A stretch of 40,899 bases of DNA from a virus, in IMG/VR virus record IMGVR_UViG_3300002835_000412, positions 1 to 40,899 of that record; one strand, 5' to 3'. Positions within the stretch are counted from its first letter, which is position 1. Each line of letters starts with the position of its first letter. The notes under the pieces are model-generated. The model saw only the letters and a list, made by a program, of their open reading frames with translations, had not been told where the DNA came from and did not search any database. The translations under genes and the position numbers were made by a program. Shown piece after piece: positions 19,604 to 40,828 of this stretch.

Positions 19604-20722
19604 ATGTCCGACAACCACTTCAAGTTCAGTCCGTCATTGCTGGCAAAGTTGAAACCCGGACCAGCAGAAAAATTGCTGTACGACGATGGATGTCCAGGGC
19701 TTGGATTAAGACTATCGCCAAAAGGCAAGATTCGTTTTTTTGTGCGGCTCGGCTCGGCTCGGAAGTCGCTAACGGCGACAACTCTGGACGCGGCACGAAA
19801 GCAAGTTCGCGAGATGCAAAATCAGCATCAGGCGCTTAGCTCGGCTGATGAATGGACGCTGCAAAAATGCTTTGATGTTTGGCTGGAGAACAAAGCAAAG
19901 CCGCACAAACGCACTTGGGAGCGTGATTTGTCGCGATGGGATGAGCATTTGAAAAAACAGCTCGGGTCACGAAAGCTCCGCGCAATTACCCCAATTGCGA
20001 TTATGGAGATGCACAACAGGATCCGCGTCGACTCTGGCCCTTATGCCGCCAACGACACGCTGGCATTTGTCAGCAGCTTGTATCGATACGCAGAGCGGTT
20101 CGATTACTCTGGCCGGAACCCATGCCGCAACATTGATCGTTTCCCAGAGCAGGAGCGAGAGCGATACCTTCAGCCGGAAGAGTTTCCACGATGGCACGCA
20201 GCTGTTCTCGCACTGGCAGTACCAGAGGCTAGAGACTTTTTTCTGCTGGCTCTCTGGACTGGCGTGCGGCGTGAATCTGTTCTTGCAATGCGATGGGATC
20301 AAATCGATTTAGAAGCGAAGCTTTGGAGACTGCCAAAAGAGGGCAACAAGAATAAACAGGATCTGATTGTTTATCTGTCCGACGAGGCCGTTGCGATTCT
20401 TCAGCAGCGCCGTGTTTACGTTCGTTCGGAGTGGGTTCTCCCATCGCGAAACGGATCAAAGTCAGGGCACTACGCAGACCCAAAAGCCAGTTGGGCGAAG
20501 GTGCTTAAGGAATCAGGAATCAAGGATCTTCGCGTTCACGATTTACGCCGGACGCTTGGATCGTGGATGGCTGAAGGTGGCACCAGTCTGCACATTATTG
20601 GGCAAACACTTGGGCACAAATCTCTTCAAAGCACCAGAATTTACGCCCGTTTGGGATCTGGAGCAATCCGCAACGCAGTAAATGCGGCCAGCGCCGCAAT
20701 GAAAAAAACGCTTGAAGACTGA
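19604..20722 (+). CDS. int: Tyrosine-type site-specific integrase
   Basis: 372 residues. The N-terminal arm-binding part contains CPGLGLRLSPKGKIRFFVR, and a core-binding SAM-like domain follows (about 80-170). The catalytic domain shows Arg in WTGVRRESVLAMRW, Lys near KEGNKNK, HDLRRTLGSW, LGHKSL and the nucleophile Tyr in STRIYARLG, so the R-K-H-R-H-Y set looks complete. No Shine-Dalgarno is visible before the ATG; direct repeats touch it, so expression may be low or autoregulated. It indicates a temperate life cycle. Confidence 0.95.
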   Translation: MSDNHFKFSPSLLAKLKPGPAEKLLYDDGCPGLGLRLSPKGKIRFFVRLGSARKSLTATTLDAARKQVREMQNQHQALSSADEWTLQKCFDVWLENKAKPHKRTWERDLSRWDEHLKKQLGSRKLRAITPIAIMEMHNRIRVDSGPYAANDTLAFVSSLYRYAERFDYSGRNPCRNIDRFPEQERERYLQPEEFPRWHAAVLALAVPEARDFFLLALWTGVRRESVLAMRWDQIDLEAKLWRLPKEGNKNKQDLIVYLSDEAVAILQQRRVYVRSEWVLPSRNGSKSGHYADPKASWAKVLKESGIKDLRVHDLRRTLGSWMAEGGTSLHIIGQTLGHKSLQSTRIYARLGSGAIRNAVNAASAAMKKTLED

Positions 20723-23266: not shown

Positions 23267-23267
23267 C

Positions 23268-23351: not shown

Positions 23352-23364
23352 TGCGTTGCGTCAC

Positions 23365-23562: not shown

Positions 23563-23586
23563 TTTCAACTAATGAAAGTCGGGCCA

Positions 23587-24540: not shown

Positions 24541-24841
24541 CGGGATCACGTTTGACTCACAGGCCGAAGCGACACGGTACGGCGTTTTGAAAGTGATTCA
24601 GGCGTCTGGGCTGATAACAGGATTGCGCCTGCAGGTTCCGTATCAGATCACAGTTAACGGAAAGAAGGTCTGCCGATATGTGGCGGACTTCGTCTACATC
24701 GAGAATGGCAAAGAGGTTGTTGAAGACGTGAAAGGCATGAAAACGCCAGTCTACAACCTGAAGAAAAAATTGATGGAAGCAGTGTTTGGTGTGGTGATTT
24801 TTGAGAGTGGATTGAGGAAGAAAAAGAAGAGGAAGAAATGA
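24497..24841 (+). CDS. DUF1064-type PD-(D/E)xK nuclease
   Basis: 114 residues, GTG start with AAAGG upstream. It begins SRSKYGAKKTVVDGITFDSQ, then AEATRY, YVADFVYIENG and VVEDVKGMKTPVYNLKKK: the order typical of DUF1064 phage proteins, with a D...ExK-like core (ADF, VEDVKG). Such small nucleases are thought to act in recombination or replication intermediates. It ends in a Lys-rich tail and overlaps the ATPase gene (ATGA). Confidence 0.8.
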   Translation: MISRSKYGAKKTVVDGITFDSQAEATRYGVLKVIQASGLITGLRLQVPYQITVNGKKVCRYVADFVYIENGKEVVEDVKGMKTPVYNLKKKLMEAVFGVVIFESGLRKKKKRKK

Positions 24842-25563: not shown

Positions 25564-25618
25564 TCACAGTTTGTGAGTGGTGTTTGAGTTTCATTTTTTT
25601 TGAGTGGAGAAGTGCGTT

Positions 25619-26095
25619 ATGGCAAATCTTGGTGACCTGAATTTGAAGGACGTTAAAGCAAATGACTTTCAAGTGATTGAGCCAGGGGAATATCCGGCAG
25701 TGATCACGAAGTCAGAAATGAAGCCGACGAAGGACGGCAGCGGACAGAGGTTGAATTTGACGCTGCAGATTCTTTCTGGCAAGTATCAAAACCGAACGCT
25801 GTTCGATGGCTTGAACGTCAAAAATAAGTCACAGCAAGCGGAACAGATTGGTCGGTCGCAACTGAAGGCCGTCTGCGTTGCTGTCAACGTTCCCGACCCG
25901 AAAGTCAGCGAGGAACTGCACAACAAACCGCTGATGATCAAAGTGGCTGTTGGCAAGGATCAGAACGGCAATCCTCGGAACGAGATTAAGGGCTACAAGG
26001 CTCGTTTGCCACAGCAAGCCGCCCCGCAACAGCCAGCGGCCAATCTTGTAGAGCAGGCATTTGAAGAAGCCGCGCCAGCAAAATCGCCCTGGTAG
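25619..26095 (+). CDS. DUF669 family ssDNA-binding-like protein
   Basis: 158 residues from ATG 25619 (GGAGAAG upstream). Beginning NLGDLNLKDVKAND, it has the DUF669 pattern EPGEYPAVITKSEMKPTKDG, LNLTLQILSGKYQNRTLF and the C-terminal NEIKGYKARLPQQ, ending in an acidic tail with the last residues PW, as in SSB-like proteins. DUF669 proteins are regarded as OB-fold ssDNA binders and are usually next to AAA_24 ATPases, as here. A terminator follows. Confidence 0.8.
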   Translation: MANLGDLNLKDVKANDFQVIEPGEYPAVITKSEMKPTKDGSGQRLNLTLQILSGKYQNRTLFDGLNVKNKSQQAEQIGRSQLKAVCVAVNVPDPKVSEELHNKPLMIKVAVGKDQNGNPRNEIKGYKARLPQQAAPQQPAANLVEQAFEEAAPAKSPW

Positions 26096-26113
26096 TCTGT
26101 CGTTTTCGCACGA

Positions 26114-26139
26114 AGCCCGGTCGATGGCCGGGCTGTTTT
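26114..26139 (+). terminator. Intrinsic terminator
   Basis: AGCCCGG (26114-26120) with CCGGGCT (26128-26134), loop TCGATGG, followed by GTTTTT. GC-rich stem plus T-run after the DUF669 gene. Confidence 0.75.
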
Positions 26140-26154
26140 TATCGAGGTTTTGCG

Positions 26155-26649
26155 ATGGGTTTTGTCACCGACGTGGAACAGTGGGCTGATCGTGTAATTG
26201 CCGATCCGCAATGGACCGCAGATTGTCTTCAGCGGCTTTATCGCTTTGGCGGTCAGCATCCAGAAAGCACAGTGCTGCGGCATTCGGTCCACGTTTGGCA
26301 TCTCTGCAAAGACCTGTCACCGCAGGAACAGATTTGGGCGTTGGTCCACGATGCTCACGAAATTTTGAGCGGTGAAATTCCTCGTGAGTTCAAGTGTGAA
26401 TTCACCCGGAAGAAGCAGGAAGAAGCCGACGCGATTTTGAAAACGAAGCTCGGTCTGAAATGGATCGACACAACAAGAGTTCACACGGCTGACATCTTGC
26501 ATGGTGCACAGGAGTTTGCATCGCTCAACAAGTATTTGGCCGGTCAGTTGAACTCAACAAAATTTGCCTCCGAGAACTATTGCTGCGCGTGGTACGCAGC
26601 TCCAGCGGAATTTGTTTACCAGTTTGAAAGATTGAAAGCAGAAATATGA
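26155..26649 (+). CDS. HD-domain phosphohydrolase
   Basis: 164 residues, GAGG upstream of ATG. Motifs: RHSVHVWHLC near residue 43, ALVHDAHEILSGEIPREFK near 62 (the HD pair), and THVADIL-like TRVHTADILHG near 117. This resembles small HD nucleotidases of the YfbR/HDDC2 type, which dephosphorylate deoxynucleoside monophosphates and would shape the nucleotide pool during replication. It is coupled by ATGA to the coiled-coil gene. Confidence 0.78.
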   Translation: MGFVTDVEQWADRVIADPQWTADCLQRLYRFGGQHPESTVLRHSVHVWHLCKDLSPQEQIWALVHDAHEILSGEIPREFKCEFTRKKQEEADAILKTKLGLKWIDTTRVHTADILHGAQEFASLNKYLAGQLNSTKFASENYCCAWYAAPAEFVYQFERLKAEI

Positions 26650-27569
26650 ACGTCATTGAATCACAACCGCAGTCATTGACTGAGCAGGCGTTGATTGCCC
26701 TGCAATCGTTTGAGCCGATGGTTGATCAGGTTTTGAGCTATGCCAACCTGACCGTAGCTGAGGACGGTATCGGCAAAGTCGAAGAAGCTCACAAGGCAGT
26801 CAAGCGGCTGCGAATTGACCTGGACAAGAAACGCAAGGAACTGAACGAAGGGGCTTTGTCTTATCAGCGGACAGTGAATGACACTGCAAAAAAACTAACC
26901 GCACGAATCTCCGCAGTTGAATCCCGTTTGGAAGGCGAACGCGAAACGTTTGAAGAAGCCAAACGCAAAGAGAAAGCCGCAAAGGACGCAGAGAAGGCAG
27001 CGGTTCTTAATGAGCGAGTGAAGCGATTGACAGAGGCCGGTGTTGTCGTGAGCGATGTGCAGACCATTGGCGCGATGGATGCCACCGACTTTGAGTTTTA
27101 CTTTGCGCGGGAAAGCCGGATCGCTGAAGAGGCAAAAGCTGAACTGAAGCGGCAGGCAGAGGAACTGGCGTTGCGTCAGGAAGAGTTGCGAATTCAGCGA
27201 CAGCAACAGGACGCGGAGCGAGCTGCGGAAATTGAAAAGATTCGCATTGAACGCGAAGCGATGGAAGCTGAACGGGCTGAGATGAGACGTCAGCAGGAAG
27301 CCATTAACCGCCACAACGAAGAACTGCGAGCCAAGGCAGAAGCCGAAGCGGCTGAGAAACGACGTCAGGAACGTGAAGCGGAAGAGGCCCTGAAGTTGGC
27401 TCTTGCTGCTCCGGAGCTGGAAAAGTTGCAGACAGTTTTGCGGGCAATGAATGAAGCCATGATCGGCAAGGTTATTGAAGTCGGAGAGCCGTCATGGAAA
27501 GACGAGTTGCGCGATAGTTTTCGTGGGTTTGCTGAAACGATGCGTTTGGTTGTTCGTCAGAGTGTTTGA
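26646..27569 (+). CDS. Long coiled-coil protein
   Basis: 307 residues dominated by heptads (about 55-260), rich in Glu, Arg, Ala and Gln (AEIEKIRIEREAMEAERAEM). N-terminal helices contain KAVKRLRIDLDKKRKELNEG, resembling DUF1351-type phage proteins linked to recombination and replication. The C-terminal 50 residues (WKDELRDSFRGFAETMRLVV) are less repetitive. Probably an accessory structural partner for the ATPase/ssDNA-binding pair. Confidence 0.65.
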   Translation: MNVIESQPQSLTEQALIALQSFEPMVDQVLSYANLTVAEDGIGKVEEAHKAVKRLRIDLDKKRKELNEGALSYQRTVNDTAKKLTARISAVESRLEGERETFEEAKRKEKAAKDAEKAAVLNERVKRLTEAGVVVSDVQTIGAMDATDFEFYFARESRIAEEAKAELKRQAEELALRQEELRIQRQQQDAERAAEIEKIRIEREAMEAERAEMRRQQEAINRHNEELRAKAEAEAAEKRRQEREAEEALKLALAAPELEKLQTVLRAMNEAMIGKVIEVGEPSWKDELRDSFRGFAETMRLVVRQSV

Positions 27570-27588
27570 TTCTTGAAAGGCATTGACC

Positions 27589-28122
27589 GTGGAAAAGCCA
27601 ATTCAAATCGGAGCTGCGTTTTATGGCGTCGAAGGATTCATAAGGAGAGGCGATAAAAAGCTGATTGATAAACGCAAATACGCTGTTTTTCAGTGCGGCT
27701 GTTCGAAGCGATTTATTTGCAAAATTAAACACATCAACAACGGCAACACAAAAAGCTGTGGCTGCCACAACGACCGTGCCAGAGCAGAACGCGGAAGGGC
27801 TCAGTTAACGACACACGGAATGACACGGACTCGCGAGTTCAGAAGCTGGGAGGGCATGCAGCAGCGTTGCTACAACAAAAACGCAAATGGGTATGAGCGT
27901 TGGGGAGGTGCTGGTGTAACTGTTTGCGATCGATGGCGGGAAAGCTTTCAGAATTTTTTAAATGACATGGGTCCGCGACCACCCAAAACATCGCTCGACA
28001 GAATTGACCCGTTTGGGAACTACGAACCGTCGAATTGCAGATGGGCTGACGCTTCAACACAGAACAGAAACATTAGGAAGAACAAGAAGCATGAAACCGA
28101 GATGGTATCAAACGGCTGCTAA
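27589..28122 (+). CDS. HNH-type homing endonuclease (zinc-ribbon N-terminus)
   Basis: 177 residues from GTG 27589 with AAAGG upstream. The N-terminal domain has a four-Cys ribbon (QCGCSKRF, SCGC). The C-terminal domain has the homing-nuclease signature: YERWGGAGVTVCDRW, SLDRIDPFGNYEPSNCRWAD. The last 32 bases overlap the helicase gene, so it sits exactly at the helicase 5' end. It is closely similar in plan to the gene at 29799-30332. Confidence 0.75.
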   Translation: MEKPIQIGAAFYGVEGFIRRGDKKLIDKRKYAVFQCGCSKRFICKIKHINNGNTKSCGCHNDRARAERGRAQLTTHGMTRTREFRSWEGMQQRCYNKNANGYERWGGAGVTVCDRWRESFQNFLNDMGPRPPKTSLDRIDPFGNYEPSNCRWADASTQNRNIRKNKKHETEMVSNGC

Positions 28123-29788
28123 TGCTGCCGTGTGGCACTATATGGCAAACAACGATGGTAACTGCATCGTTGTTTTGCCAACGGGTGCAGGGAAAAGCCT
28201 TCTTGCAGCCATGCTGATTGAGCAGGCTATTAAGTTTAATGGCCGCGTTGTGATTCTCGCACATCGCAAAGAGTTGCTTGAACAAAATGCTGAGGAGATT
28301 CGCGGATTGATTTCGGGTGTAGATGTTGGAATTTACTCAGCAGGTTTGAAAAGCAGAAATGTAACAAGCACTGTGATCGTTGGAGGAATCCAATCGATTT
28401 ACAGGAAAGCAAACGAACTCGGTGACCGCCATTTAATCATTGTTGACGAATGCCATCTTTGCTCAGAGAACGATGAGTCAATGTATGGTCAATTCATCCG
28501 CGACATGAAGATAAACAATCCTCGTCTTCGCATCGTTGGAATGAGCGCCACGCCGTTCCGTACTGGTGAAGGGCCGTTATGTGGCCGTCATCGTCTGTTC
28601 CAGCGGATCGTCTATGAGGCACAGACTGGGCGATTGATTGAAGAGGGTTTTCTTTGCCCGATTACGAACAAACCTGCAGACGCTGAAGTCAACACTGAAG
28701 GCATTAAGCTGCGAGGCGGGGAGTTTATCGAATCGGAAATGCAGGCCGTGTTTGTCGACAATGTTGTCGCTGCTTGCCTTGAAACAATCGAAAAGTGCAA
28801 CGATCGAAAGTCGATCCTGATTTTTGCCTCTGGAGTTAGACACGCTGAAGACGTCGCGGCATTCATCGAAAAGACGACGGGCGACCGGGTTGGCCTTGTC
28901 ACTGGCGATACGTTGGCAATTGAACGGGCCGGATTGTTGGCCGCGTTCAAATCTCAGGAGCTTCGCTGGTTGGTCAACTGCGACGTTTTGACGACTGGCT
29001 TCAATGCGAAGTGTGTTGACGCGATCGCAATTATGCGGGCGACAATGTCCCCTGGGCTGTTCTGCCAGATGGTTGGGCGTGGGCTCCGGTTGCATCCGTC
29101 AAAGGTCAATACGCTGATTTTGGATTTTGGCGAAAACATTAAGCGACACGGAAGCATTGACGACGCGAGCTTTGGCCGCGCGTCGGAAGCAAAACGCGGA
29201 CAGGCGGCACGAGCTGCGTTGAACGGACGCGGAAAACCTTGTCCAGCCTGCGGGATCGATGTTGCTGCCAACACTCGTGAATGCGAATGCGGCTATTTGT
29301 TTCCAGTCAATGTCGAGGGAACTGCAGATGGATCTTCGCAACTGACGGGCCAGATTCCGCCGGAAATTTGGACTGTGGTGTCCTGCGGTTGGGGCAAACA
29401 TATCAAGCGAGGCGACAACGAAGCCCCGCCGACTCTGCGGATTGATTATGAGTGCAGACTGGTTGAGAGCGAAGGGGGTTTACTTACCACGAAGATATCA
29501 GAGTGGGTCTGCCTAAGTCACCCTCCCGGATTTGCGAGACTGAAAGCTCAGGGCTGGTGGCAAAACAGATCCATAGCACAGGTGCCAGATTCTGTAGAGG
29601 AAGCATTGTCTCTTCTCAACCGTGGTGCATGTCGAATGGCTTCACAAATAACAACGATAAAAGACGGAAAATATTTTCGAATTCAATCATGTGAATTCGT
29701 TGATGAGATCCCAACGGAGTGGGAGGAAGAAATTGAGGAAGAATCGTTCGGTGAATTTTCAGGCGTCGGAGATGACGTGCCATTTTAG
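28091..29788 (+). CDS. SF2 DNA helicase with zinc ribbon
   Basis: 565 residues from ATG 28091. Helicase motifs in order: MKPRWYQTAA (Q-like), LPTGAGKSLLA (I), AHRKELLEQN (Ia), IIVDECH (II, DECH box), GMSATPFRTG (III), ILIFASGVRH (IV), TTGFNAKCVDA (V), QMVGRGLRLHP (VI). After these is a zinc ribbon (CPACG ... CECGYLF) near residue 385. Likely a replicative or recombination helicase. HNH-like genes abut both its ends. Confidence 0.92.
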   Translation: MKPRWYQTAANAAVWHYMANNDGNCIVVLPTGAGKSLLAAMLIEQAIKFNGRVVILAHRKELLEQNAEEIRGLISGVDVGIYSAGLKSRNVTSTVIVGGIQSIYRKANELGDRHLIIVDECHLCSENDESMYGQFIRDMKINNPRLRIVGMSATPFRTGEGPLCGRHRLFQRIVYEAQTGRLIEEGFLCPITNKPADAEVNTEGIKLRGGEFIESEMQAVFVDNVVAACLETIEKCNDRKSILIFASGVRHAEDVAAFIEKTTGDRVGLVTGDTLAIERAGLLAAFKSQELRWLVNCDVLTTGFNAKCVDAIAIMRATMSPGLFCQMVGRGLRLHPSKVNTLILDFGENIKRHGSIDDASFGRASEAKRGQAARAALNGRGKPCPACGIDVAANTRECECGYLFPVNVEGTADGSSQLTGQIPPEIWTVVSCGWGKHIKRGDNEAPPTLRIDYECRLVESEGGLLTTKISEWVCLSHPPGFARLKAQGWWQNRSIAQVPDSVEEALSLLNRGACRMASQITTIKDGKYFRIQSCEFVDEIPTEWEEEIEEESFGEFSGVGDDVPF

Positions 29789-29798
29789 GAGTTAAGTC

Positions 29799-30332
29799 GT
29801 GGCAACACCAAAAATGAAAACATATGAGGCTGGAACAATCTTCGGAAGGCTAACCGTCATAGGGGCTTCCGAGCCGAGGGTAACAAAGGATGGAAGAAAA
29901 CAAGCAATGAGCTTATGCCGTTGCGAGTGCGGTAAGGAAATCACAACTAGAAATGCTGAACTTCAAAGAGGAGGAAGCAAATCATGCGGTTGCCTTACAG
30001 TTGAAAAATCAAGGACAAGATTGCTGAAACATGGATTGAGTACATCGCTGACTGGTCGCTCTGTTCAAGCAGCGAACGCGCGGTGCAATAACAAAAAACA
30101 CGTCGCTTTCGAAAACTATGGTGGAAGAGGAATCAAAATAAATCCTGAATGGGTAAAGAACCCGCAGTTGCTCATTGATGAAATAGGGCCACGCCCATCA
30201 AGTGATTACACGCTCGACAGAATCAACAACGACGGAAATTATGAATCAGGAAACGTGAGATGGGCTACAAAATCTGAGCAGGCGAAAAACAAAAGGAGAT
30301 CACAAAAACAACTAAGCAATCAACGCGATTGA
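29799..30332 (+). CDS. HNH-type homing endonuclease, second copy type
   Basis: 177 residues, GTG start with AGGAG overlapping the helicase stop. N-terminal zinc ribbon (CRCECGKEITTRN, SCGC) and C-terminal homing nuclease signature (YGGRGIKINPEW, TLDRINNDGNYESGNVRWAT). It parallels the 27589 gene domain for domain, but sequence divergence suggests separate acquisition. Base use is AT-richer than the neighbours. Sited exactly after the helicase gene. Confidence 0.75.
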   Translation: MATPKMKTYEAGTIFGRLTVIGASEPRVTKDGRKQAMSLCRCECGKEITTRNAELQRGGSKSCGCLTVEKSRTRLLKHGLSTSLTGRSVQAANARCNNKKHVAFENYGGRGIKINPEWVKNPQLLIDEIGPRPSSDYTLDRINNDGNYESGNVRWATKSEQAKNKRRSQKQLSNQRD

Positions 30333-33103: not shown

Positions 33104-33271
33104 ATGAAGAAAAAACCAAAAGGCCGACCAAGGAAAAAGAAGACTGAGGTTCTTGTGAACGTCAATGTGCGAGTGTCGCAGGCCGTGAAGAAGATTGTGG
33201 AGAGCTGGAAGAAGAAAAAACGCGAACGGCTTGAGAGGGCAATCAAGGTCGAAGAAGAAAACGAAGAGTAG
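33104..33271 (+). CDS. Small AT-hook/ribbon-like DNA-binding protein
   Basis: 55 residues from ATG 33104: an AT-hook-like KPKGRPRKKK, then a strand-helix pattern VNVNVRVSQAVKKIVESWKKKK resembling a ribbon-helix-helix. GTG 33008 would add 32 residues. It lies right after the repeat cluster and could bind it. The stop codon TAG is part of a terminator hairpin, the first of the 17 intergenic tags. Confidence 0.5.
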   Translation: MKKKPKGRPRKKKTEVLVNVNVRVSQAVKKIVESWKKKKRERLERAIKVEEENEE

Positions 33272-33300
33272 CGGAGTGGAACATCCGCTGTTGTTTTTTT
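33270..33300 (+). terminator. Intrinsic terminator overlapping a stop codon
   Basis: AGCGGA (33270-33275) pairs with TCCGCT (33284-33289), loop of 8, followed by GTTG and seven Ts. The stem includes the last two bases of the TAG stop. It is tag 1 of the repeat family. Confidence 0.65.
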
Positions 33301-33327
33301 AGTCCAAAAACAAAGGGAAAATAAATC

Positions 33328-33666
33328 ATGGCCATGAAACCAACCGAAGCTCCAGCCGGATACACGGGAGATCCGGCATTGCGTCCGACCAGTCCGCCGC
33401 CTCCACGCAGGACAGGGGCGATTGATCCACTGGAATCAGCCTACGCAATGATTCGCGATCTTCGCGAGGCGTTGAGGACTGCAGACCAATGGAAAGCAAT
33501 GCTGCAGAAGGCGAACGATGATTTGCGAAAGCAGGTCAGAGAATTGCGTTGCGAACTTGGGAAACACGAGTGCCCATCCTGCGGCGAAACGGACATTGGC
33601 GAGTACCGATATTTCGATGATCGAGGCGAGTCCATGTGCCGTGCGTGCGGTAAGGAATGGGAATGA
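33328..33666 (+). CDS. Small zinc-ribbon protein with Pro-rich N-terminus
   Basis: 112 residues: Pro-rich first 35 residues, a coiled coil (about 45-75: MLQKANDDLRKQVRELRCEL), then a zinc ribbon CPSCGETD ... CRACGKEW. AAAGGGAAA lies upstream. A DNA- or protein-binding small early protein; specific role unknown. Confidence 0.6.
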   Translation: MAMKPTEAPAGYTGDPALRPTSPPPPRRTGAIDPLESAYAMIRDLREALRTADQWKAMLQKANDDLRKQVRELRCELGKHECPSCGETDIGEYRYFDDRGESMCRACGKEWE

Positions 33667-33725
33667 TCAACAGAGGTAATTGCATCCGCTAGGCGCGCGG
33701 AAATCTAAAAACATTGGGGAGTTCG

Positions 33726-34421
33726 ATGAACGTAAATTGCTTGAGTTACTGGTATCCATTGATAAAGGGGTTTGTTCCGACTCCGCGAACGGAGATTGTC
33801 CGGAGCGGGGATCTGTCGGCACTGTTCGACAACAAACTCCCGGAATGTTGGGATAGCTTTCAGGCTGAAATAGACGGTGCCAGGGCAAACATCGGCGGCG
33901 ATTGTTTTCTGAGAACCGGACAAGGATCAGGAAAACACAACTGGTCGAAGACCTGTTTTCTTCCAAAGAACGACAGCGTGATATCACACGTCGCGGCACT
34001 GATCGACTGGTCAATGCTGGTGGATTTCATGGGGCTTCCGTTCGACGTGTGGTGCGTTCGGGAGATGCTTCCGACCTCTCCAATCGGAACATGCCCTAGA
34101 TATGGCGGGATGCCGGTCTGTCGTGAGTTTCGATTCTTCGCCGGGTCCGGAAACGTCATGTGTTTCCATCCATACTGGCCATTGGAAGCACTACAGGAAG
34201 GTGGCTTTGTGGGAGACGTTTCAGATGGCTGGTACGAAGAGTTTTGCAGGCTTGATGACACAGAGCCGAAACGGCTGGCTCAATTAGCCAGCTTGGCGGT
34301 TCCGGGAGCGTGGTCGATCGACATTCTGGAAACAAAACGCGGCTGGTTTGTGACCGACATGGCAGTTGCGGCACAGTCGTATCATTGGCCGGAATGCCCA
34401 TTGATTAACGAACAAAAGTAA
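33726..34421 (+). CDS. ATP-grasp-like (R2K-type) phage protein, tentative
   Basis: 231 residues from ATG 33726 (GGGGAG upstream). The order DCFLRTGQGSGKHNWSKTCF, VWCVREMLPT, GMPVCREFRFFAG and CFHPYWPLEA matches a phage family with the layout of ATP-grasp ligases of the R2K clade (RT..SGKH..W; REF.F...). These are predicted to ligate peptides or amino acids to unknown targets. The call is by motif memory and not certain. It is the longest gene in the small-gene block. Confidence 0.5.
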   Translation: MNVNCLSYWYPLIKGFVPTPRTEIVRSGDLSALFDNKLPECWDSFQAEIDGARANIGGDCFLRTGQGSGKHNWSKTCFLPKNDSVISHVAALIDWSMLVDFMGLPFDVWCVREMLPTSPIGTCPRYGGMPVCREFRFFAGSGNVMCFHPYWPLEALQEGGFVGDVSDGWYEEFCRLDDTEPKRLAQLASLAVPGAWSIDILETKRGWFVTDMAVAAQSYHWPECPLINEQK

Positions 34422-34466
34422 CAGCGGAACTTGTATGCTCTGTTGCCGCTTGGAGGAGTTTTCGAG

Positions 34467-34886
34467 ATGTGTTTTTACTACGACGATCAACCAAAAATGG
34501 CCGAAACGCGGCAAGTGAAATGCCGCAAAGATCACCCGTGTGAAGGCTGCTGCAAGACGATCAAGAAGGGGCAGCGAGCTGAACACAATACCGGCTTGTT
34601 TGACGGTTCGTGGTTCTCATACTACGTCTGCGATCGGTGCCAGCGAGTCATCATGGGGATCGCTGTGAAGGAAATGCTTGAGGGCTGTCCGTGGCATACC
34701 GCTTGGTGTTCACCTTGCGATCTGTATGAGTATGTCAATGAGCGTGAATATCACTATGACGAAGAGATCAGGCCGCTTGGGCTCCGCACCCTGGAAGACT
34801 GTCGCAGGTATGTCGACCAGATTGCCGTGAGGACTGGACAGCACTGGTGGCTCGAAGAAAAGATGATTCCGCTGGAATCGTTTTGA
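34467..34886 (+). CDS. Cys-rich zinc-binding protein
   Basis: 139 residues from ATG 34467 (GGAGGAG 9 bases upstream). Cys pairs CRKDHPCEGCCKTI and CDRCQRV suggest a metal-binding domain at about 22-65; the rest has WCSPCDLYEYVNER and DWW-like aromatic content. Such anti-host or regulatory small phage proteins are common; no family recognised. Confidence 0.55.
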   Translation: MCFYYDDQPKMAETRQVKCRKDHPCEGCCKTIKKGQRAEHNTGLFDGSWFSYYVCDRCQRVIMGIAVKEMLEGCPWHTAWCSPCDLYEYVNEREYHYDEEIRPLGLRTLEDCRRYVDQIAVRTGQHWWLEEKMIPLESF

Positions 34887-34924
34887 ACAGCGGTATTCCG
34901 TTCCGATAGGTAAAGGGGATTGGC

Positions 34925-35173
34925 GTGTCTGAATTCGTTTACTTGGTTAATTTGTGTCACTCGATGGACGACATTCCGATGCGGCTATTTGCTGAGGTCG
35001 ACGCTGCTTTTGAATACGCGAAGCTGATCGACTGGGAGGTTCCAGACGAGATGTACAAGAGGCTTGAATTACCAGCGTGTTCAACGCCGGTATGTGTCAC
35101 CGTGACCACGTTTTGTAACGGAGTCCCGATGAGTCGGGTGGTTGTTCGGTCGTTTGATGAAGATGATGAGTAA
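34925..35173 (+). CDS. Small hypothetical protein
   Basis: 82 residues, GTG start, AAAGGGG upstream. A mixed alpha-beta protein (VYLVNLCHSMDD, RLFAEVDAAFEYA, VCVTVTTFCNGV) with an acidic end. It resembles small early phage proteins; no specific family. Tag 5 with an extra hairpin follows it. Confidence 0.55.
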   Translation: MSEFVYLVNLCHSMDDIPMRLFAEVDAAFEYAKLIDWEVPDEMYKRLELPACSTPVCVTVTTFCNGVPMSRVVVRSFDEDDE

Positions 35174-35276
35174 CAGCGGATGTGGGTTCCGCTCGTCAAC
35201 TGTCAAGAATGGCTTGACGGTTTGAAAACATTGGGTTTTGTTCTGAAAAACGTATCCGCTGCTCGTGAGGTGTGTG

Positions 35277-35651
35277 ATGGGTGTAGCTCAGCAACATAGA
35301 GTGCAAAAACTCAATTCCCAGATGATCGACAGGCAGCTCGCTGAGTTGCCACGGAGCCTTCACAATTTGATTGAAGAGCGTAAGGATCATGCGGAGAAGC
35401 AGGATGCTCTGCGTCGTGAGATTGCGGCGTTGAAGGATGTGGTGGCTGGCCATGCACTGCAGGTCGAAGCCTTGGAGTCGGAAGTGCGAGCGGAGAAAGC
35501 TCGTGGAGACGCATGGAAAGCCCGTTGTAAAGCCGCACGGAAGTCGGCTGATATGTTCTTGGAGAACTGGAATAGAGCGTCCGAGTTACTCCGACTTGCG
35601 GGAACCGAGGCGGTAAGTCGGCTGCGAGAACTTCGAGACATGCACAAGTGA
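35277..35651 (+). CDS. Small coiled-coil protein
   Basis: 124 residues from ATG 35277 (GAGGTG upstream), nearly all heptad coiled coil (KQDALRREIAALKDVVAG, EVRAEKARGD). Function unknown; probably a dimeric adaptor or structural accessory protein. Confidence 0.55.
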   Translation: MGVAQQHRVQKLNSQMIDRQLAELPRSLHNLIEERKDHAEKQDALRREIAALKDVVAGHALQVEALESEVRAEKARGDAWKARCKAARKSADMFLENWNRASELLRLAGTEAVSRLRELRDMHK

Positions 35652-35691
35652 AATCAACAGCGGGCTGGAAATCCGATAACAGGAGCGACTG

Positions 35692-35853
35692 ATGGTGTTT
35701 TGTATGATGTGGGTCAATGCGTGGTTTTCCGGCATCAACTGGCAGTGCTACATACAAAGGTCGCATGGGCCTACGCAGGCATGGCCATTCGCCCCATCGG
35801 ATCACCAGATCGTAATGAGGTTTCCGGACCCGCTTGTGTGTCAGGCTGAATGA
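35692..35853 (+). CDS. 53-residue hypothetical protein
   Basis: AGGAG 6 bases upstream of ATG. Trp-rich (VFCMMWVNAWFSGINWQCY) with a polar C-terminal half. It fits exactly between tags 6 and 7, like its neighbours, which supports it as a gene. Confidence 0.5.
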   Translation: MVFCMMWVNAWFSGINWQCYIQRSHGPTQAWPFAPSDHQIVMRFPDPLVCQAE

Positions 35854-35889
35854 GCAGCGGTCATTTCATCCGGTAGTCGAGGGTTGATC

Positions 35890-36048
35890 ATGTTAAATCG
35901 AAAGCAGAAACGAGACGCTAAAAACGCACGGCACCGAAGGAATGAGCGTCGCCGCGAAGTGCTGAAGATTTTGAAGCGGTCGCCGGAATTGTGGAAAGCA
36001 ATTGGTGAGGCTGCTGAGATTGCTAAACAGATTCGGGCGTGGCGTTAA
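35890..36048 (+). CDS. 52-residue basic helical protein
   Basis: Begins LNRKQKRDAKNARHRRNERR, strongly basic, then a helix (LWKAIGEAAEIAKQIRAW). GAGGG lies upstream. A nucleic-acid-binding helix is plausible. It lies between tags 7 and 8. Confidence 0.5.
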   Translation: MLNRKQKRDAKNARHRRNERRREVLKILKRSPELWKAIGEAAEIAKQIRAWR

Positions 36049-36093
36049 GTAAACGCGGTTCTGCACTCCGCGAGGCGCGAGAGGGAAAGAAAA

Positions 36094-36357
36094 ATGGCGA
36101 CAATAGACGCAGCAAGGCGAATGCTTGACCCGAAGGATTACGGCGACGATCCAATGGATGACGCTCACCACGTCGCTAGGGCATTGCTTCGAGCCTTGGA
36201 ATTGCTGAAGCAATGCTATGACGCAGGGCATCGGAACGGTTGGGAAAATGGAGTGACAAACGAAGAAGTGTTCGGGGCAGTGAACGACTTTTTAGCGGAA
36301 ACAGATCCGCTGAAATGGGAGCAGCAACTGCATGATGATATTTGCGCGGAAGAATGA
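36094..36357 (+). CDS. Small helical hypothetical protein
   Basis: 87 residues, GAGGG upstream. Helices with His/Asp-rich segment DPMDDAHHVARALLRALELL, then GWENGVTNEEVFGAVNDFL. No family recognised. Confidence 0.55.
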   Translation: MATIDAARRMLDPKDYGDDPMDDAHHVARALLRALELLKQCYDAGHRNGWENGVTNEEVFGAVNDFLAETDPLKWEQQLHDDICAEE

Positions 36358-36405
36358 GGAGCGGAGCACACTAGCTCTGTTGGTTCTGAAAAACGAAAGT
36401 CACAA

Positions 36406-36687
36406 ATGAGCAGGCCGCTTTTCATCCCTCTCAAGTCAGAGTTTTACGACGCATTCCTGAGCGGTTCGAAAACTGTTGAGTATCGCCGATACGGTCGCGG
36501 CTGGAATGAGACGACGTGTGGCATCGGTCGAGCGGTCGTTTTGTCAAAGGGGTACGGCAAACAGAATCGCCTGACAGGCCGAGTGGTCGGCTTTGAAGTC
36601 AAGGTGATGGATTCACCGGACTGGATTGCGTGCTACGGTGAGCCAGGGCAAGCGGCTTGTATTGAGATCGAGTTGACGAGAGGTTGA
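36406..36687 (+). CDS. ASCH/PUA-like domain protein
   Basis: 93 residues: PLFIPLKSEFYDAFLSGSKT, VEYRRYGRGWNETTC, GRAVVLSKGYGKQ, LTGRVVGFEV: the small beta-barrel pattern of ASCH/PUA-like domains, which bind RNA or modified nucleosides. The arm of tag 10 lies inside its last codons. Confidence 0.7.
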   Translation: MSRPLFIPLKSEFYDAFLSGSKTVEYRRYGRGWNETTCGIGRAVVLSKGYGKQNRLTGRVVGFEVKVMDSPDWIACYGEPGQAACIEIELTRG

Positions 36688-36715
36688 GCGTTCCTCTAGG
36701 CGCAGTGGTGCAAAC

Positions 36716-36943
36716 ATGATGGCAGATCTGAAATGGATTCAGCCGGGATACGTTGTGGAACTGCATCCGGGATGCTGGTTAAAGCAGGCTGGTATCAATC
36801 ACACAACAACACTGGAACTGAAGTGGGCAACGCGTTGGCCGACTGAACGTTCCGCCAAAAGAGCATTGAGCCGGACTCGGAAAGCCTCGATGAAGAAGCT
36901 GGCAACGGCAAAGATTTACGGTACTGATATGGATAAAGAGTAA
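36716..36943 (+). CDS. Small basic hypothetical protein
   Basis: 75 residues, beginning MADLKWIQPGYVVELHPGCW, with a basic C-terminal half (RSAKRALSRTRKASMKKL). No clear Shine-Dalgarno apart from GGTG. Unknown function. Confidence 0.5.
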   Translation: MMADLKWIQPGYVVELHPGCWLKQAGINHTTTLELKWATRWPTERSAKRALSRTRKASMKKLATAKIYGTDMDKE

Positions 36944-37033
36944 ACGCGGATCGTGGTTCCTCTAGTCAACTTGTAAGAACGGCTTACAGGTTGAAAACAT
37001 TGGTGAAATGCGGCGGCGATTGGAGTATTAGTC

Positions 37034-37261
37034 ATGCCTGTGGTGCAAAGCGGTTATGTTGTGCGTTCTGGTTATGGGTTCCTCAAAGACCCAGCAACCG
37101 GCGAGATGGTTGCAAATCGATCAAACCCAGATGCCGCCGTGTTTGAGGCAAAGCGTTATGCGACTGAATCGGAAGCAGAGTCTGATGCAGCGGTGATGCG
37201 AGAACGTGGACTGGAAGCGATCGTTGTGAGTGTTGAGAAGGTTCCGTACACGTCCGCATAA
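37034..37261 (+). CDS. Small hypothetical protein
   Basis: 75 residues, TGGAG upstream. Beta-rich start (VVQSGYVVRSGYGFLKDPAT) and a helix, ESDAAVMRERGLEAIVVSVE. It resembles small single-domain phage proteins of unknown role. Confidence 0.55.
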   Translation: MPVVQSGYVVRSGYGFLKDPATGEMVANRSNPDAAVFEAKRYATESEAESDAAVMRERGLEAIVVSVEKVPYTSA

Positions 37262-37310
37262 CAACAGAGGTCTGGTACTCCGATCGCATCGAAAACATTG
37301 GGGAAAATCA

Positions 37311-37580
37311 ATGAGGCCGGAAGTAGCAAAGACTTTGATAAGACGATTGGACAACGCTGAGCGGCGACTTCTGGCAACTGCGCCACAGCGAAGGGTTGAC
37401 GCAATTCAGCGATACGGCGAGCCTCTTGTCGCGTGGATGTGGAAGCCGGAGCTGACAATGGAGTTCGACCACATCAAGCGAGCAAAGGGCCGGGCAAGAC
37501 GCTTGTGTGATCACTCCTGCGGGTTCAGCGATCAGGGCTATTGTCGTGCGTGTGAGGCGAATCGGTTGTTCGTTAAGTAA
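37311..37580 (+). CDS. Small protein with C-terminal Cys/His motif
   Basis: 89 residues from ATG 37311 (GGGGA upstream). N-terminal helices (VAKTLIRRLDNAERRLLA) and a C-terminal CDHSCGFSDQGYCRAC motif that could bind zinc. Unknown function. Confidence 0.55.
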   Translation: MRPEVAKTLIRRLDNAERRLLATAPQRRVDAIQRYGEPLVAWMWKPELTMEFDHIKRAKGRARRLCDHSCGFSDQGYCRACEANRLFVK

Positions 37581-37610
37581 CAGAGGTGTGACGCTACCTC
37601 TAGTCTTTTT
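37579..37610 (+). terminator. Tag 13 hairpin with T-run
   Basis: AGAGGT (37582-37587) pairs with ACCTCT (37596-37601), loop of 8, then AGTC and five Ts. A weak intrinsic terminator, also a copy of the tag family. Confidence 0.5.
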
Positions 37611-37624
37611 GTAAAGCGAAACAG

Positions 37625-37948
37625 ATGGCACAAGACAAACAGAACGCATTCGCGGTGATGGTCGGACGTATTGAGGACCAACTGGCTGTGATCCCAATAC
37701 TCACGCAAAACGTTCTGGAGCCAGAGTCGGCTGAGTGGCTCAAAAGGTTCGCGGCCAATGTGGCGGAATTGATCAAGGCGTCCGAACGTGCCATTGCTGA
37801 GGCGAAGGCAGAAGCGGATCATCCTGAATCCGTCTACGATGCCGTCAGCCGGTTGCGGTCGTGGATAAGGGACTACGGCGACCAAAAGCAGCCGTACTTT
37901 ATTGCGGATCTGAAGACGGTCCTGAATCTGATTTCAACAGAGGAATAA
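37625..37948 (+). CDS. Helical hypothetical protein
   Basis: 107 residues, all helical (FAVMVGRIEDQLAVIPILTQ, AANVAELIKASERAIAEAKA). The last codons and stop lie inside tag 14. Unknown function. Confidence 0.55.
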   Translation: MAQDKQNAFAVMVGRIEDQLAVIPILTQNVLEPESAEWLKRFAANVAELIKASERAIAEAKAEADHPESVYDAVSRLRSWIRDYGDQKQPYFIADLKTVLNLISTEE

Positions 37949-37979
37949 CTGTGCTCTGTTGGTCTGGAAAGGCCGTAAC

Positions 37980-38207
37980 ATGCTGGATAAATCATTCCGA
38001 ACGATTGCGGTGGAGGTGGATACAACCATCGAGCGGAAGTGTGAAACGTGCGTGCTCTGGCAACCTGATGTGCCCAATCCGTGGAACCCGGAGCGTCGTC
38101 GCTGCATGTGTGCGGTTCCGGCATCGGTGCAGAGAGGCACAAGATATTCAGGATACACGCGGTCATCAGATGGATCGCATTGTTTGTTCTGGAATCCAAA
38201 GAAATAA
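37980..38207 (+). CDS. Small Cys-rich protein
   Basis: 75 residues from ATG 37980 (GGAAAGG upstream). CETCVLWQPDVPNPW, RRCMCAVP and HCLFWNPKK give five Cys and one His, consistent with a metal site. It resembles small zinc-binding phage proteins. Unknown function. Confidence 0.6.
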   Translation: MLDKSFRTIAVEVDTTIERKCETCVLWQPDVPNPWNPERRRCMCAVPASVQRGTRYSGYTRSSDGSHCLFWNPKK

Positions 38208-38237
38208 CAGCGGATAACCATTCCGAGAGGCGCAAAA

Positions 38238-38480
38238 ATGACGAAGGAAAACGAAAAGTGCTTCGCGTATCAGGACAGCACTGGACAACTCGATTTGGAT
38301 TCGATTGCGGAATCCGTTGACCGCGTGCGAAATAAGATGCTCGCAGATAGCATGGGCTGGAGATATGAATATCCGGACGGGCACGACGCACAATGGAATC
38401 TGCTTTTGCAGCATGGAAAAGTGGTTGAGGTGGTCGTCTTGATTGTTCCGGAATCAGCAGCGGATCTCGGAAACCGATAA
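38238..38480 (+). CDS. Small hypothetical protein
   Basis: 80 residues, GAGAGGCG upstream. Begins TKENEKCFAYQDSTGQLDL and has a central helix (SIAESVDRVRNKMLADSMGW) and a hydrophobic beta segment (VVEVVVLIVP). Unknown function. Confidence 0.55.
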   Translation: MTKENEKCFAYQDSTGQLDLDSIAESVDRVRNKMLADSMGWRYEYPDGHDAQWNLLLQHGKVVEVVVLIVPESAADLGNR

Positions 38481-38482
38481 CA

Positions 38483-38578
38483 CGGCTGGCGGTGTGGACA
38501 GTGACACATGGTGGTAAAGGCCCGAAAGGATGACGGCCACCGGCGACGGCCCAGCAGGTGCGATTCCTGCCCAGTCGA
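38483..38578 (+). ncRNA. tRNA-like RNA element
   Basis: CGGCTGG (38483-38489) pairs with CCAGTCG (38571-38577), 7 bp with one G-U. The 3' acceptor strand directly follows a 5-bp T-arm GCAGG/CCTGC (38554-38570) with 7-base loop TGCGATT, which nearly matches TTCGATT. The central 64 bases do not fold into a normal anticodon arm; a GTGT/ACAC stem and GGTGG/CCACC pairing are possible. A tRNA-like or degenerate tRNA is the best description. Confidence 0.5.
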
Positions 38579-38627
38579 ATCAATCAACAGCGAACAGCAC
38601 GTCCGATAGTCTTTTGAGGATGCGTAA

Positions 38628-38996
38628 ATGAGTGATATGGAAACTGGGTACGCTAACGCGGCCCAATGTGCACAGTTGCTATCTGAGGCACGAAAAGACG
38701 GATGCCTTTTCTGCAAGTGGTTTGCCATGCACGAAGAGGCGACAGCAACTAAATCTGCAACCTTCAAACATATAACGCTGCTTGAAGTGCACGGAGACTG
38801 CAGGAGGCGTGCGCCGATTGTCCAGTTGCACGAAGAAGATCCGGATAGCAATCTGACGGTGTGGCCAGAGGTCACGCAAAAGGAATGGTGCGGAGAATTC
38901 GAGAAAACGACTGAGATCATAGACGTTGATTACATTTGCTCACCGACGACTGACCCCGGTTTCAGAGAATGGATCACGGAACAGGCGATGAAGTAA
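38628..38996 (+). CDS. Hypothetical protein with Cys motif
   Basis: 122 residues, GAGGA upstream. An early CLFCKWFAMHEEAT motif, then CRRRAP and WCGEFE, suggest a metal-binding Cys/His cluster. Tag 17 begins in its stop codon. Unknown function. Confidence 0.55.
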   Translation: MSDMETGYANAAQCAQLLSEARKDGCLFCKWFAMHEEATATKSATFKHITLLEVHGDCRRRAPIVQLHEEDPDSNLTVWPEVTQKEWCGEFEKTTEIIDVDYICSPTTDPGFREWITEQAMK

Positions 38997-39029
38997 CATC
39001 GGTTCAGAACTCCGATAGTCGCGAAGGCA

Positions 39030-39627: not shown

Positions 39628-39965
39628 AGCTGCCTCTTGCACTGATTGCCAGCGGATTGATTGGCGGGCTTTTGCTGCTGTATGGCGGCAAGGGTGCTCC
39701 GGGGCCGTCGCCATCCGATGCGGTTTCCGCAGTGTTTGACGCACAGGAAGCCACGTTCCGCAAACTGTCCGGAGAGCGAGCCAAAGCACTCCGCGCGGGC
39801 GAAATCACCAGCGAAGCGGCATCGGTCGCATGGATGCAATCACGCTGGCTTCCGGCATTTGAGGCGGAGTGGGCGAAACTGCTGACTCAGGAAGCGGCGG
39901 CATTTGGTGGCGAGCAATGGACGGCAGAGAAAGAAGCCGCTTGGATTGAGAGGTACGTGCGATGA
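39624..39965 (+). CDS. Secreted or anchored helical protein
   Basis: 113 residues, GTG start with GGAGG upstream and GTGA overlap. N-terminal hydrophobic segment (LPLALIASGLIGGLLLLYGG) like a signal anchor, then charged helices (FRKLSGERAKALRAGEITSE). Likely acts at the membrane in lysis or entry; function unknown. Confidence 0.5.
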   Translation: MKLPLALIASGLIGGLLLLYGGKGAPGPSPSDAVSAVFDAQEATFRKLSGERAKALRAGEITSEAASVAWMQSRWLPAFEAEWAKLLTQEAAAFGGEQWTAEKEAAWIERYVR

Positions 39966-40828
39966 CACACGCTTTGAAAATCCCGACAGCAGCCGAGTGG
40001 AAAGAACTGGAAGTCACTGCAAAAGTGTCTGCCCCGCGTGCGGAGGATTACGCCGAATGGGAAGAACGATTGCGGGCACATTCCGCGATTTTGCTGGCAG
40101 AAATGAGAGACCAGCGGCAGACGCAAAACGACTGCCAGGGCAACGCGACTGCAAACGGGACTGAGGCGAGGCATCGCTATTGTGTTGGAAAAATGGTTCA
40201 GTTCTCGGATACCTACGCATATAACGCTAGCGAGTATGTGAGCAGCCCGAACGACGTTGGCCGTGATTCTGGAACATCAATGCAGTCCGGCGTGAAGCTG
40301 CTGACAAAAGGCATTCCAGACATCGGAGTAAAGCCTGGACTATGTCTTGAGTCCGAATGGAAGTACGGCACCTACGAAACCAAAGCCAGTCGTTTTGTTG
40401 AGCGAGCCAAGGGGCTGACGATTGAGGATAGTTACGTCGCTGAGCACGGCCCGATGCCTCCGTGGGATCAGATGTTGATTGCATTGTCGGCCGGTGGCAC
40501 AGGGCACATCGGAGTCTATTGGGCTCCTTCGTTCGTAAAGTTGCAAAACAAATACTCTTGCTGGTCGAAGAATGCAAACAGCGGCGGCGGTCATGCAGTG
40601 GAAATCATTGCGGCGATTGAGCTGAGCGGCATTTGGTATCTGGTCGTCTGGAACTCGCACGGCAACGGATTTAAGTTGATGCCTCGGGCAAATTACGAAG
40701 CGTATCAACGCAATCAGTTTGCACCGTTTGGCGGCTATTTGCTGATGCCTGATAAGCCGGTCGAGCGTTATCACAATCGCGTCGTCAGTGGCGGTGGATA
40801 CTTCAGCCCAAGCAAGGGGGTGGCGTGA
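39962..40828 (+). CDS. Papain-like (C1A) cysteine peptidase
   Basis: 288 residues, ATGA overlap. The catalytic Cys lies in QTQNDCQGNATANGTEAR near residue 59, with Gln upstream as in papain's oxyanion hole. The His is in GGGHAVEIIAAIE near 218 and the Asn in VVWNSHGNGF near 236 (papain NSWG-like). It could be an endolysin-like peptidase that cuts peptide crosslinks in the host wall, or a virion peptidase. No signal peptide is visible. Confidence 0.7.
   Translation: MTHALKIPTAAEWKELEVTAKVSAPRAEDYAEWEERLRAHSAILLAEMRDQRQTQNDCQGNATANGTEARHRYCVGKMVQFSDTYAYNASEYVSSPNDVGRDSGTSMQSGVKLLTKGIPDIGVKPGLCLESEWKYGTYETKASRFVERAKGLTIEDSYVAEHGPMPPWDQMLIALSAGGTGHIGVYWAPSFVKLQNKYSCWSKNANSGGGHAVEIIAAIELSGIWYLVVWNSHGNGFKLMPRANYEAYQRNQFAPFGGYLLMPDKPVERYHNRVVSGGGYFSPSKGVA

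Follow-up and report, generated by a model that had tools for sequence, protein, structure and literature searches.

An ordered address code at the gene ends of related phages, with a possible role in the exchange of single genes

The window analysed here (the whole stretch of 40,899 nucleotides of IMG/VR virus record IMGVR_UViG_3300002835_000412) contains a block in which all 17 genes between 33104 and 38996 end in a tag at or beside the stop codon, as a reading of the sequence alone had reported. The main point was invisible to that reading, which had a single sequence before it: ordered addresses in the tag centres are common to a group of uncultured phages. We think it somewhat probable, on the basis of these comparisons, that the block is an array of cassettes coded by address, and that these cassettes are swapped between phages by a site-specific tyrosine recombinase acting at tags with equal cores.

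The tags are about 25 letters long and are built as arm, core and arm, with the window consensus (A)A(A/G)CA(G/T)(C/A)GG, 9-10 nt, CC(G/T)(A/C)T(A/G)(G/T). Over the window and the related arrays the arms read AACAGCGG / CCGMTRKT. The middle 7-8 letters are the slot number, or address. The features of the window are the following.

19604..20722, + strand, phage tyrosine integrase (Pfam Phage_integrase)
33104..33271, + strand, cassette 1, small basic protein, the gene before K01
33266..33292, + strand, tag 1, address K01 agtggaacat, core gtggaaca, arms TAGCGG / CCGCTGTT; address class in 17 other contigs
33328..36048, + strand, cassettes 2-8 (genes 33328-33666, 33726-34421, 34467-34886, 34925-35173, 35277-35651, 35692-35853, 35890-36048)
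33668..33693, + strand, tag 2, address K02 taattgcat; 26 contigs
34419..34444, + strand, tag 3, address K03 aacttgtat; 21 contigs
34885..34910, + strand, tag 4, address K04 tattccgtt; 23 contigs
35171..35196, + strand, tag 5, address atgtgggtt, window only; occupies the place of K05 in contig G043
35655..35680, + strand, tag 6, address gctggaaat, window only
35852..35877, + strand, tag 7, address tcatttcat, window only
36050..36075, + strand, tag 8, address K09 ttctgcact
36094..38480, + strand, cassettes 9-16 (genes 36094-36357, 36406-36687, 36716-36943, 37034-37261, 37311-37580, 37625-37948, 37980-38207, 38238-38480)
36356..36381, + strand, tag 9, address K10 agcacacta
36675..36700, + strand, tag 10, address K11 ttgagcgtt
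36941..36966, + strand, tag 11, address K13 atcgtggtt; 16 contigs
37262..37287, + strand, tag 12, address K14 tctggtact; 14 contigs
37578..37604, + strand, tag 13, address K15 tgtgacgcta; 10 contigs
37935..37960, + strand, tag 14, address K16 aataactgt
38205..38230, + strand, tag 15, address K17 ataaccatt
38455..38481, + strand, tag 16, address K18 atctcggaaa
38482..38584, + strand, tRNA-like non-coding segment between two tags, T-arm-like CAGGTGCGATTCCTG
38585..38610, + strand, 18th tag, address K19 acagcacgt, core cagcacg, left arm AACAGCGA
38586..39020, + strand, complete tag-to-tag cassette with gene 38628-38996, common to the window and contig G031
38994..39019, + strand, last tag of the block, address K20 ttcagaact

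The 18th tag (CAACAGCGA acagcacgt CCGATAGT) had been overlooked by the sequence-only reading. It closes the tRNA-like segment, for which neither ARAGORN nor Rfam made a call; the Rfam search gave nothing relevant. The stop codon mostly overlaps the left arm, at an offset of -1 or 0 in 103 of 173 genes from all related arrays. Within such blocks the tag density is 1.99 per kb, against 0.048 per kb elsewhere, and all reversed sequences together gave one match. The products of cassettes 2-8 are mostly without assigned function, and that of gene 36406 matches PHROG 625, a family without known function.

That the nine central bases differ from copy to copy is correct within one phage and fails between phages, where the centre is conserved as one of about 22 addresses (the comparison set comprised about 40 related IMG/VR contigs). 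In 28 arrays with 184 tags the order of addresses was concordant in 726 pairs and discordant in 2, counted after ten far-off matches outside the blocks, most of them from a relaxed scan, had been removed by hand; the raw scan contained 30 discordant pairs. Shuffling the addresses of the 28 arrays gave a mean of 364 concordant pairs and 447 at best. The hand-filtered count is supported by an independent set of contigs, found via other addresses, in which the order was 123:0 (shuffles: mean 61, best 88). When K21 and K22 were included the count was 1045:4, two of the four discordant pairs coming from G037, whose K22 is situated at the contig start. All 177 tags with a known address lie on one strand. 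Bias from the address classes is small: a listed address was present in 172 of 175 tags found by their arms alone.

Among the 173 genes that end at tags there are 122 families, 94 of which are singletons. Genes enclosed by the same two addresses in different phages are mostly unrelated, genes closed by one address can be unrelated to each other, and members of some families stand at different addresses; tRNA genes also serve as cassettes. Stretches of homology between phages tend to break off at tags: 138 of 185 segment ends lie no more than 25 nt from a tag centre, compared with 25% of random positions. The cassette at 38586-39020 is 99.8% identical to its counterpart in G031 over 435 bp, and this identity breaks off at tags on both sides. 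The comparison of related phages, by order, gene replacement and homology ends, strongly supports one half of the earlier interpretation, a recombination boundary permitting the exchange of small genes; the other half, which assumed an RNA element whose stems covary, is not borne out. At the head of the array, the gene preceding K01 belongs in 14 of 16 arrays to one of three families of small basic proteins, for which no similarity to one another was detected. Members of one of them, F0, look RHH-like, their best PF01402 bits being under the Pfam cut-off.

Slot-specific conservation is restricted to the core of 7-8 bp. In same-slot pairs without flank homology the core showed an excess identity of 0.6-0.9; that of the arms was about 0.2 at most, and outside it was near zero. 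Inner core positions are conserved to 99.3% and the first base to 75.6%; some slots have a core of 8 bp, and core length varies within K01, K06 and K18. The arms are dyad-symmetric half-sites, degenerate inverted repeats of approximately AACAGCGGW common to all tags, and the tags match the layout of a tyrosine recombinase core site, in which a 6-8 bp overlap lies between inverted half-sites. A different repeat in L023 may belong to another arm family. The two arms of a tag are not linked to each other: in 187 tags 441 Watson-Crick pairs were counted, against 483 after free shuffling of arms and 448 after shuffling within addresses, which contradicts the covariation that had been claimed for them. 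In the clearest cases the arms travel with the gene while the addresses stay. At the K16 junction of the window (37935) and the K15 junction of G041 (5679) the genes on either side are homologous and the arms identical, yet the addresses differ; the same is true of G034 and G040. Over all pairs the linkage of arm and gene is partial; where flanks are at least 95% alike the arms are identical in about one half to two thirds. Core-only slot conservation, degenerate inverted arms that do not covary and the movement of arms with genes together make the tag look like half-site, crossover core and half-site. It looks as if core identity sets compatibility, as in the dif modules of Acinetobacter or in engineered cassette exchange.

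Tyrosine recombinase core sites allow variation in the half-sites but demand a matching overlap. From the similar anatomy of the tags we infer a site-specific tyrosine recombinase as the crossover enzyme. Each tag would consist of two degenerate inverted half-sites of general use flanking a 7-8 bp core unique to its slot, and the unit of exchange would be one gene or tRNA with a half-site on either side. If two such phages met in the same cell, crossing over at two tags with matching cores would swap the intervening DNA. Because all cores within one phage differ the array would not delete itself, and because they match between phages the order would be kept. Some phages could encode the enzyme themselves, at the head of the array, and others could obtain it from the host or the partner. 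For the fuller proposal, a natural ordered set of heterospecific sites with about 22 shared addresses, a dedicated tyrosine recombinase and slot-by-slot swaps of single genes in co-infection, we see the chances as evenly balanced. Several observations count against a site-specific model: the variable core length in K01, K06 and K18, which a strict overlap would not tolerate, the movement of some genes to other slots, the lack of a recombinase common to all array contigs, the weak fold model of the candidate enzyme and the partial linkage of arms and genes.

A candidate enzyme is a divergent tyrosine recombinase of 408 aa present in 7 contigs. It is encoded directly upstream of K01/K02 in G028, G037, G043, G045 and L177; in G046 and L175 the gene lies farther off, 3-4 kb before K02. 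It matches PHROG_1 (E=3.8e-5), and the top Foldseek matches of its weak fold model (mean pLDDT 56) were Cre, lambda Int and XerA. A recombinase of 297 aa encoded in G003 is a further candidate. No recombinase common to every array contig was found: three tyrosine recombinase profiles had no match in G033, G039 and G041 (39-43 kb, perhaps incomplete contigs), and the PF00239 profile matched in 0 of 27 array contigs. The window integrase was also considered as a common tag enzyme. Since a clear relative was found only in G043 among 30 array contigs searched, it probably serves in lysogeny rather than at the tags. Relatives of the terminase and of gene 36406, tried as tag carriers, had scarcely any tags, and the loose motif occurred there at chance level. 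Among GenBank phages the block had no nucleotide match and the neighbouring gene 39962-40828 no protein match. The planctomycete host suggested earlier was not confirmed. A primase scan of GTDB genomes found no relative, and the K02 pattern gave 3 GTDB matches, in unrelated genomes and none with a second good tag. As these are taken as chance, no host is named.

The main rival to site-specific exchange is recombination through short homology. Tags would be short shared boundaries at which phage recombinases swap genes by ordinary homologous or annealing recombination, the arms being kept for some other reason. A Sak4-like annealing protein is encoded in the window and several relatives (relatives of it occur in 10 contigs), phage recombinases work with short, diverged homologies (PMC3945230; likewise the abstract of PMC2327257), the exact run through same-address tags is at least 23 bp in 16% of pairs, and occasional slot changes fit microhomology in the arms. 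However, the median exact run is 16 bp, short of the shared tract of about 23-34 bp that minimal efficient pairing takes (RecA 31-34 bp, Red-beta 23-27; PMC3945230). A linker kept by homology should also conserve core and adjacent arms alike, whereas within a slot only 7-8 bp are conserved and the arms are hardly slot-specific. Inverted half-sites common to all linkers are left unexplained, the two junctions described above differ in the core alone between homologous genes, and the array contigs carry at least two replication gene sets. We regard recombination through short homology as possible and on the unlikely side.

It is improbable that the tags are regulatory sites at which the mosaic joints merely happen to lie. 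They would then be stoperator-like operators of a dimeric protein, perhaps the small basic one whose gene precedes K01. The dyad symmetry of the half-sites, the small basic protein gene at the head of most arrays with its one weakly RHH-like family, and the multi-site repressors known from phages (stoperators, PMC9283540; Cluster O repeats, PMC4351075) would agree with this, but an operator gives no reason for a spacer that is specific to its slot and ordered alike across dozens of phages, and the first gene belongs to three families without detected similarity, with PF01402 bits below the cut-off. These arguments leave room for protein binding beside exchange. A stem-loop acting in termination, processing or reinitiation after each gene would explain the position at the stop codon, and the window copies at 33267-33292 and 37582-37601 are terminator-like on the + strand. 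Only these two are, however; most copies have no T-run, tRNA genes are cassettes too, and ordered addresses are beyond the reach of such an element. As the arms do not covary, with pairs at or below the shuffled numbers and no compensatory change keeping a stem, the hairpin reading fails and we consider it very improbable. The idea of a phage-borne integron with the tags as attC sites draws on the single small gene per site, the site at the gene end, the tyrosine recombinase adjoining the array head in 5 contigs and the existence of phage integrons (PMC9892861). It is hardly credible: the tags measure only about 25 bp, none of 231 has both an RYYYAAC and a GTTRRRY box, the arms lack the pairing that an attC hairpin needs, and the order of addresses is fixed.

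It has long been asked how phages can trade single genes and still keep their genomes in order, and the answers offered have been illegitimate recombination followed by selection, or linkers. Because the joints described here bear a readable position code, exchange becomes countable, predictable and testable with respect to matching slots, the destination of a gene and the enzyme. If the slot-by-slot swap reading is true, accessory genes could be traded without breaking genome order. The arrays further provide an inventory of small accessory genes of phages, for the most part of no known function, with limits that are legible from the DNA alone. In engineered cassette exchange with heterospecific lox or FRT sites, common half-sites carry unlike spacers, exchange occurs only at equal spacers, and the cassette is swapped between two unlike sites. 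That system is man-made, whereas the tag arrays are natural and have about 20 unlike sites in series. If site-specific, they would be its natural counterpart, with about 20 distinct cores coexisting in one molecule, and the cores would be a ready set of orthogonal sites.

To our knowledge integron cassettes are not slot-coded. Phage linkers and the PeSLs of T4 are thought to act through homology, and we know of no common inverted half-sites or ordered core set in them. Like the tags, they are short, conserved stretches between genes, at the points where mosaic joints occur (Arbiol et al. 2010, as cited in PMC3797505). Integron arrays, also found in phages (PMC9892861), are likewise rows of single-gene cassettes with a site at the 3' end, and a tyrosine recombinase at the head is found in some tag-array contigs too; the tag arrays differ in having no attC boxes, length or hairpin. 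In the dif modules of Acinetobacter (pdif, XerC/XerD; PMC13141974) genes are similarly bounded by half-site, short spacer and half-site. Recombination there takes place at sites whose 6-bp spacers are identical or nearly so (PMC13141974); spacer identity picks the recombining sites, and single modules are replaceable between partners matching on both sides. A similar limit may hold for the arrays, to judge by the comparative evidence of address order and of exchange between equal cores. Unlike the arrays, dif modules are located on plasmids, with asymmetric XerC and XerD half-sites of unrelated sequence, 6-bp spacers and alternating orientation. The arrays have symmetric half-sites in one orientation, cores of 7-8 bp and about 22 addresses in one order across diverse phages. 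The published pdif half-sites (for example ATTTCGTATAA / TTATGTTAAAT) differ from the arm consensus, and instead of alternating as C and D modules do, tags with known addresses all point one way. Many short repeats at gene junctions also occur in mycobacteriophages, as stoperators, Cluster K SAS/ESAS (PMC3203893) and Cluster O 17-bp palindromes (PMC4351075). Slot-specific cores are not reported for them in the available parts of these two sources, according to which SAS, unlike tags, are located at gene starts (PMC3203893) and the Cluster O repeats, unlike tag cores, have nearly uniform centres (PMC4351075). Deletions in Cluster O likewise run between repeats, according to the same part of PMC4351075.

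The small-gene block lies in a 40.9 kb IMG/VR virus contig that carries terminase, portal, head and tail genes. A tyrosine integrase and a Sak4-like annealing protein are also encoded, along with one helicase-like and one primase-like gene. Searches turned up no related isolate: in 50,697 GenBank phage records there was no nucleotide match to the block and no match to the protein encoded at 39962-40828, and the window primase gave distant matches only (<60% identity). HNH/AP2-type endonuclease-like genes, so named by reading the sequence and not by family search, occur among the replication genes (22587-30332) at 22587, 23425, 27583 and 29799. The features needed here are:

33104-38996, small-gene block of 17 genes, after the primase-like gene and before the lysis-side genes
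38482-38584, tRNA-like non-coding segment with a T-arm-like CAGGTGCGATTCCTG

The sequence-only reading had placed a tag behind every gene of the block, and this was borne out: an arm, a centre of 9-10 nt and a second arm follow 17/17 genes. The tRNA-like segment, for which neither ARAGORN nor Rfam made a call, is closed by an 18th copy whose left arm is slightly degenerate. Across all relatives the commonest arrangement is an overlap of stop codon and left arm. Tag density was 1.99 per kb within blocks versus 0.048 per kb outside, and all reversed contigs together yielded 1 hit. Another tRNA-like non-coding segment is present in the compared contig L051 (1-100). In some cassettes a second small repeat, AAAACATTGG, separates the tag from the start codon (33708, 35224, 36993 and 37291); at 35173 and 36943 a short inverted repeat comes before it (GTCAAG...CTTGAC and TGTAAG...CTTACA). 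The small protein of unknown function encoded at 36406-36687 (PHROG 625) also occurs in phages L023-L028, which lack these tags.

Queries with the primase, gene 39962-40828 and the K02 tag, followed by queries with the K16 and K04 tags, brought together approximately 40 contigs from many metagenomes. The centres had been described as variable; this does not hold between phages, since the same centres recur in relatives, as was evident already in the first contigs collected. Within the block they fall into about 20 classes or addresses (K01-K20), and two further classes, K21 (atcgttgat/atctgttgat) and K22 ((a/t)actggact), are located downstream, in most contigs about 3-6 kb past K20. Because 172/175 tags found by their arms alone within blocks carried a listed address (the 3 exceptions all being in the window), the classes are not a product of the search.

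These addresses follow one order. In 28 arrays 726 pairs were concordant and 2 discordant (random order: mean 364, best 447), after ten far-off hits outside blocks had been removed by hand from a raw set of 753:30. Both discordant pairs are K13-K10, in G021 and G003. Contigs found later via other addresses gave 123:0 for the same order, and addition of K21 and K22 gave 1045:4. G037 accounts for two of these four; its K22 is situated 105 nt into the contig, as it would be had the genome been opened elsewhere. Slots may be absent, and others hold next to nothing: 34 nt separate K01 from K02 in G035 and G047, and 33 nt separate K02 from K03 in G038.

The genes between the tags are by no means fixed. 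Those ending at tags (n=173) formed 122 families, of which 94 were singletons; in front of K03 alone, 15 genes represented 13 families, and several families were present at more than one address. Cassette 38586-39020 is 99.8% identical to its counterpart in G031 from tag to tag, with differing neighbours on both sides, and G034 and G041 share an identical 748 bp up to K02 and are unrelated beyond. Serine tRNA genes also serve as cassettes:

L050 11910-11979 and L045 14901-14970, tRNA-Ser (anticodon AGA) after a tag, which is K04 in one of the two phages and K05 in the second

Where homology between two contigs broke off, 138/185 segment ends lay no more than 25 nt from the centre of a tag (random positions 25%). 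Since tags mark almost all gene boundaries of the block, this count does not tell a preference for tags from one for gene boundaries as such. Comparison with the relatives strongly supports the earlier suggestion of a recombination boundary.

Which part of the tag belongs to the slot? In same-slot tags flanked by non-homologous genes, excess identity was 0.6-0.9 over 7-8 inner positions, partly a consequence of core-defined classes, versus no more than about 0.2 for the arms, which played no part in class definition, and about 0 outside the tag. The covariation previously claimed for the arms was not found. Both arms repeat a single degenerate half-site, in inverted orientation; this and the lack of covariation make them look like half-sites for binding rather than a stem. 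The clearest cases show arms that travel with the gene and an address that stays with the slot: at window 37935 and G041 5679 both flanking genes are homologous and the arms equal, but the addresses are K16 and K15; likewise G034 15369 and G040 20301 carry K04 and K03. Over all pairs this linkage is partial: an arm was identical in 52-67% of same-address pairs if the flank next to it was 95% or more alike, and in 13-21% if flanks were unrelated.

Such an anatomy is that of a tyrosine-recombinase site, with two half-sites and a short core needing a match, for which lax arms and a strict core are predicted. Cores unique within one phage would prevent self-deletion, and equal cores between phages, presumably meeting in co-infection, would let whatever lies between two matched sites be replaced, as has been proposed for single dif modules (PMC13141974). 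The small basic product of the first gene might bind as well. The main rival is homologous recombination in which phage annealing proteins use the tag as a linker. Sak4-like proteins are indeed present and slot changes do occur, but the exact run common to same-address tags has a median of 16 bp and reaches 23 bp or more in 16% of pairs, so that most fall short of the 23-34 bp that Red-beta and RecA require (PMC3945230), and it is the core, not the whole tract, that is conserved.

Candidates for a site-specific enzyme are:

G028, G037, G043, G045 and L177, directly upstream of the array, divergent tyrosine recombinase of 408 aa
G046 and L175, a few kb upstream of the array, the same recombinase

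The 408-aa protein was matched by PHROG_1 (E=3.8e-5), and a Foldseek search with its model, which is of low confidence (pLDDT 56), pointed to Cre, lambda Int and XerA. G037, G043 and G045 encode it in addition to another integrase. No tyrosine recombinase was found in G033, G039 and G041 (39-43 kb; the contigs may be incomplete), where host or partner would need to supply the enzyme, unless it is too divergent to detect. Given these three contigs and a case built on sequence, we put the action of a site-specific tyrosine recombinase at the tags at about even odds. A second divergent tyrosine recombinase family, with members of about 300 aa and weak matches in Pfam and PHROGs, occurs in G003, G019, G024, G032, G037, G044 and G045; in G024 it sits between K21 and K22.

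In its way of working the array is like dif modules and engineered cassette exchange. It is not a dif module, whose half-sites and alternating orientation are absent here, nor an integron, attC boxes being found in 0/231 tags. In the openly accessible papers that were read, no case came up of many addresses kept in one order by phages whose gene sets differ, and there is a good chance that the array deserves more than the status of a variant of known systems. In L023 (IMGVR_UViG_3300042554_001993, about 9150-10300) small genes are followed by a repeat of another kind, about 90 nt long and with the ends GACGAACG ... TTGTTCGTCG; it is somewhat attC-like and possibly marks another cassette array in another phage.
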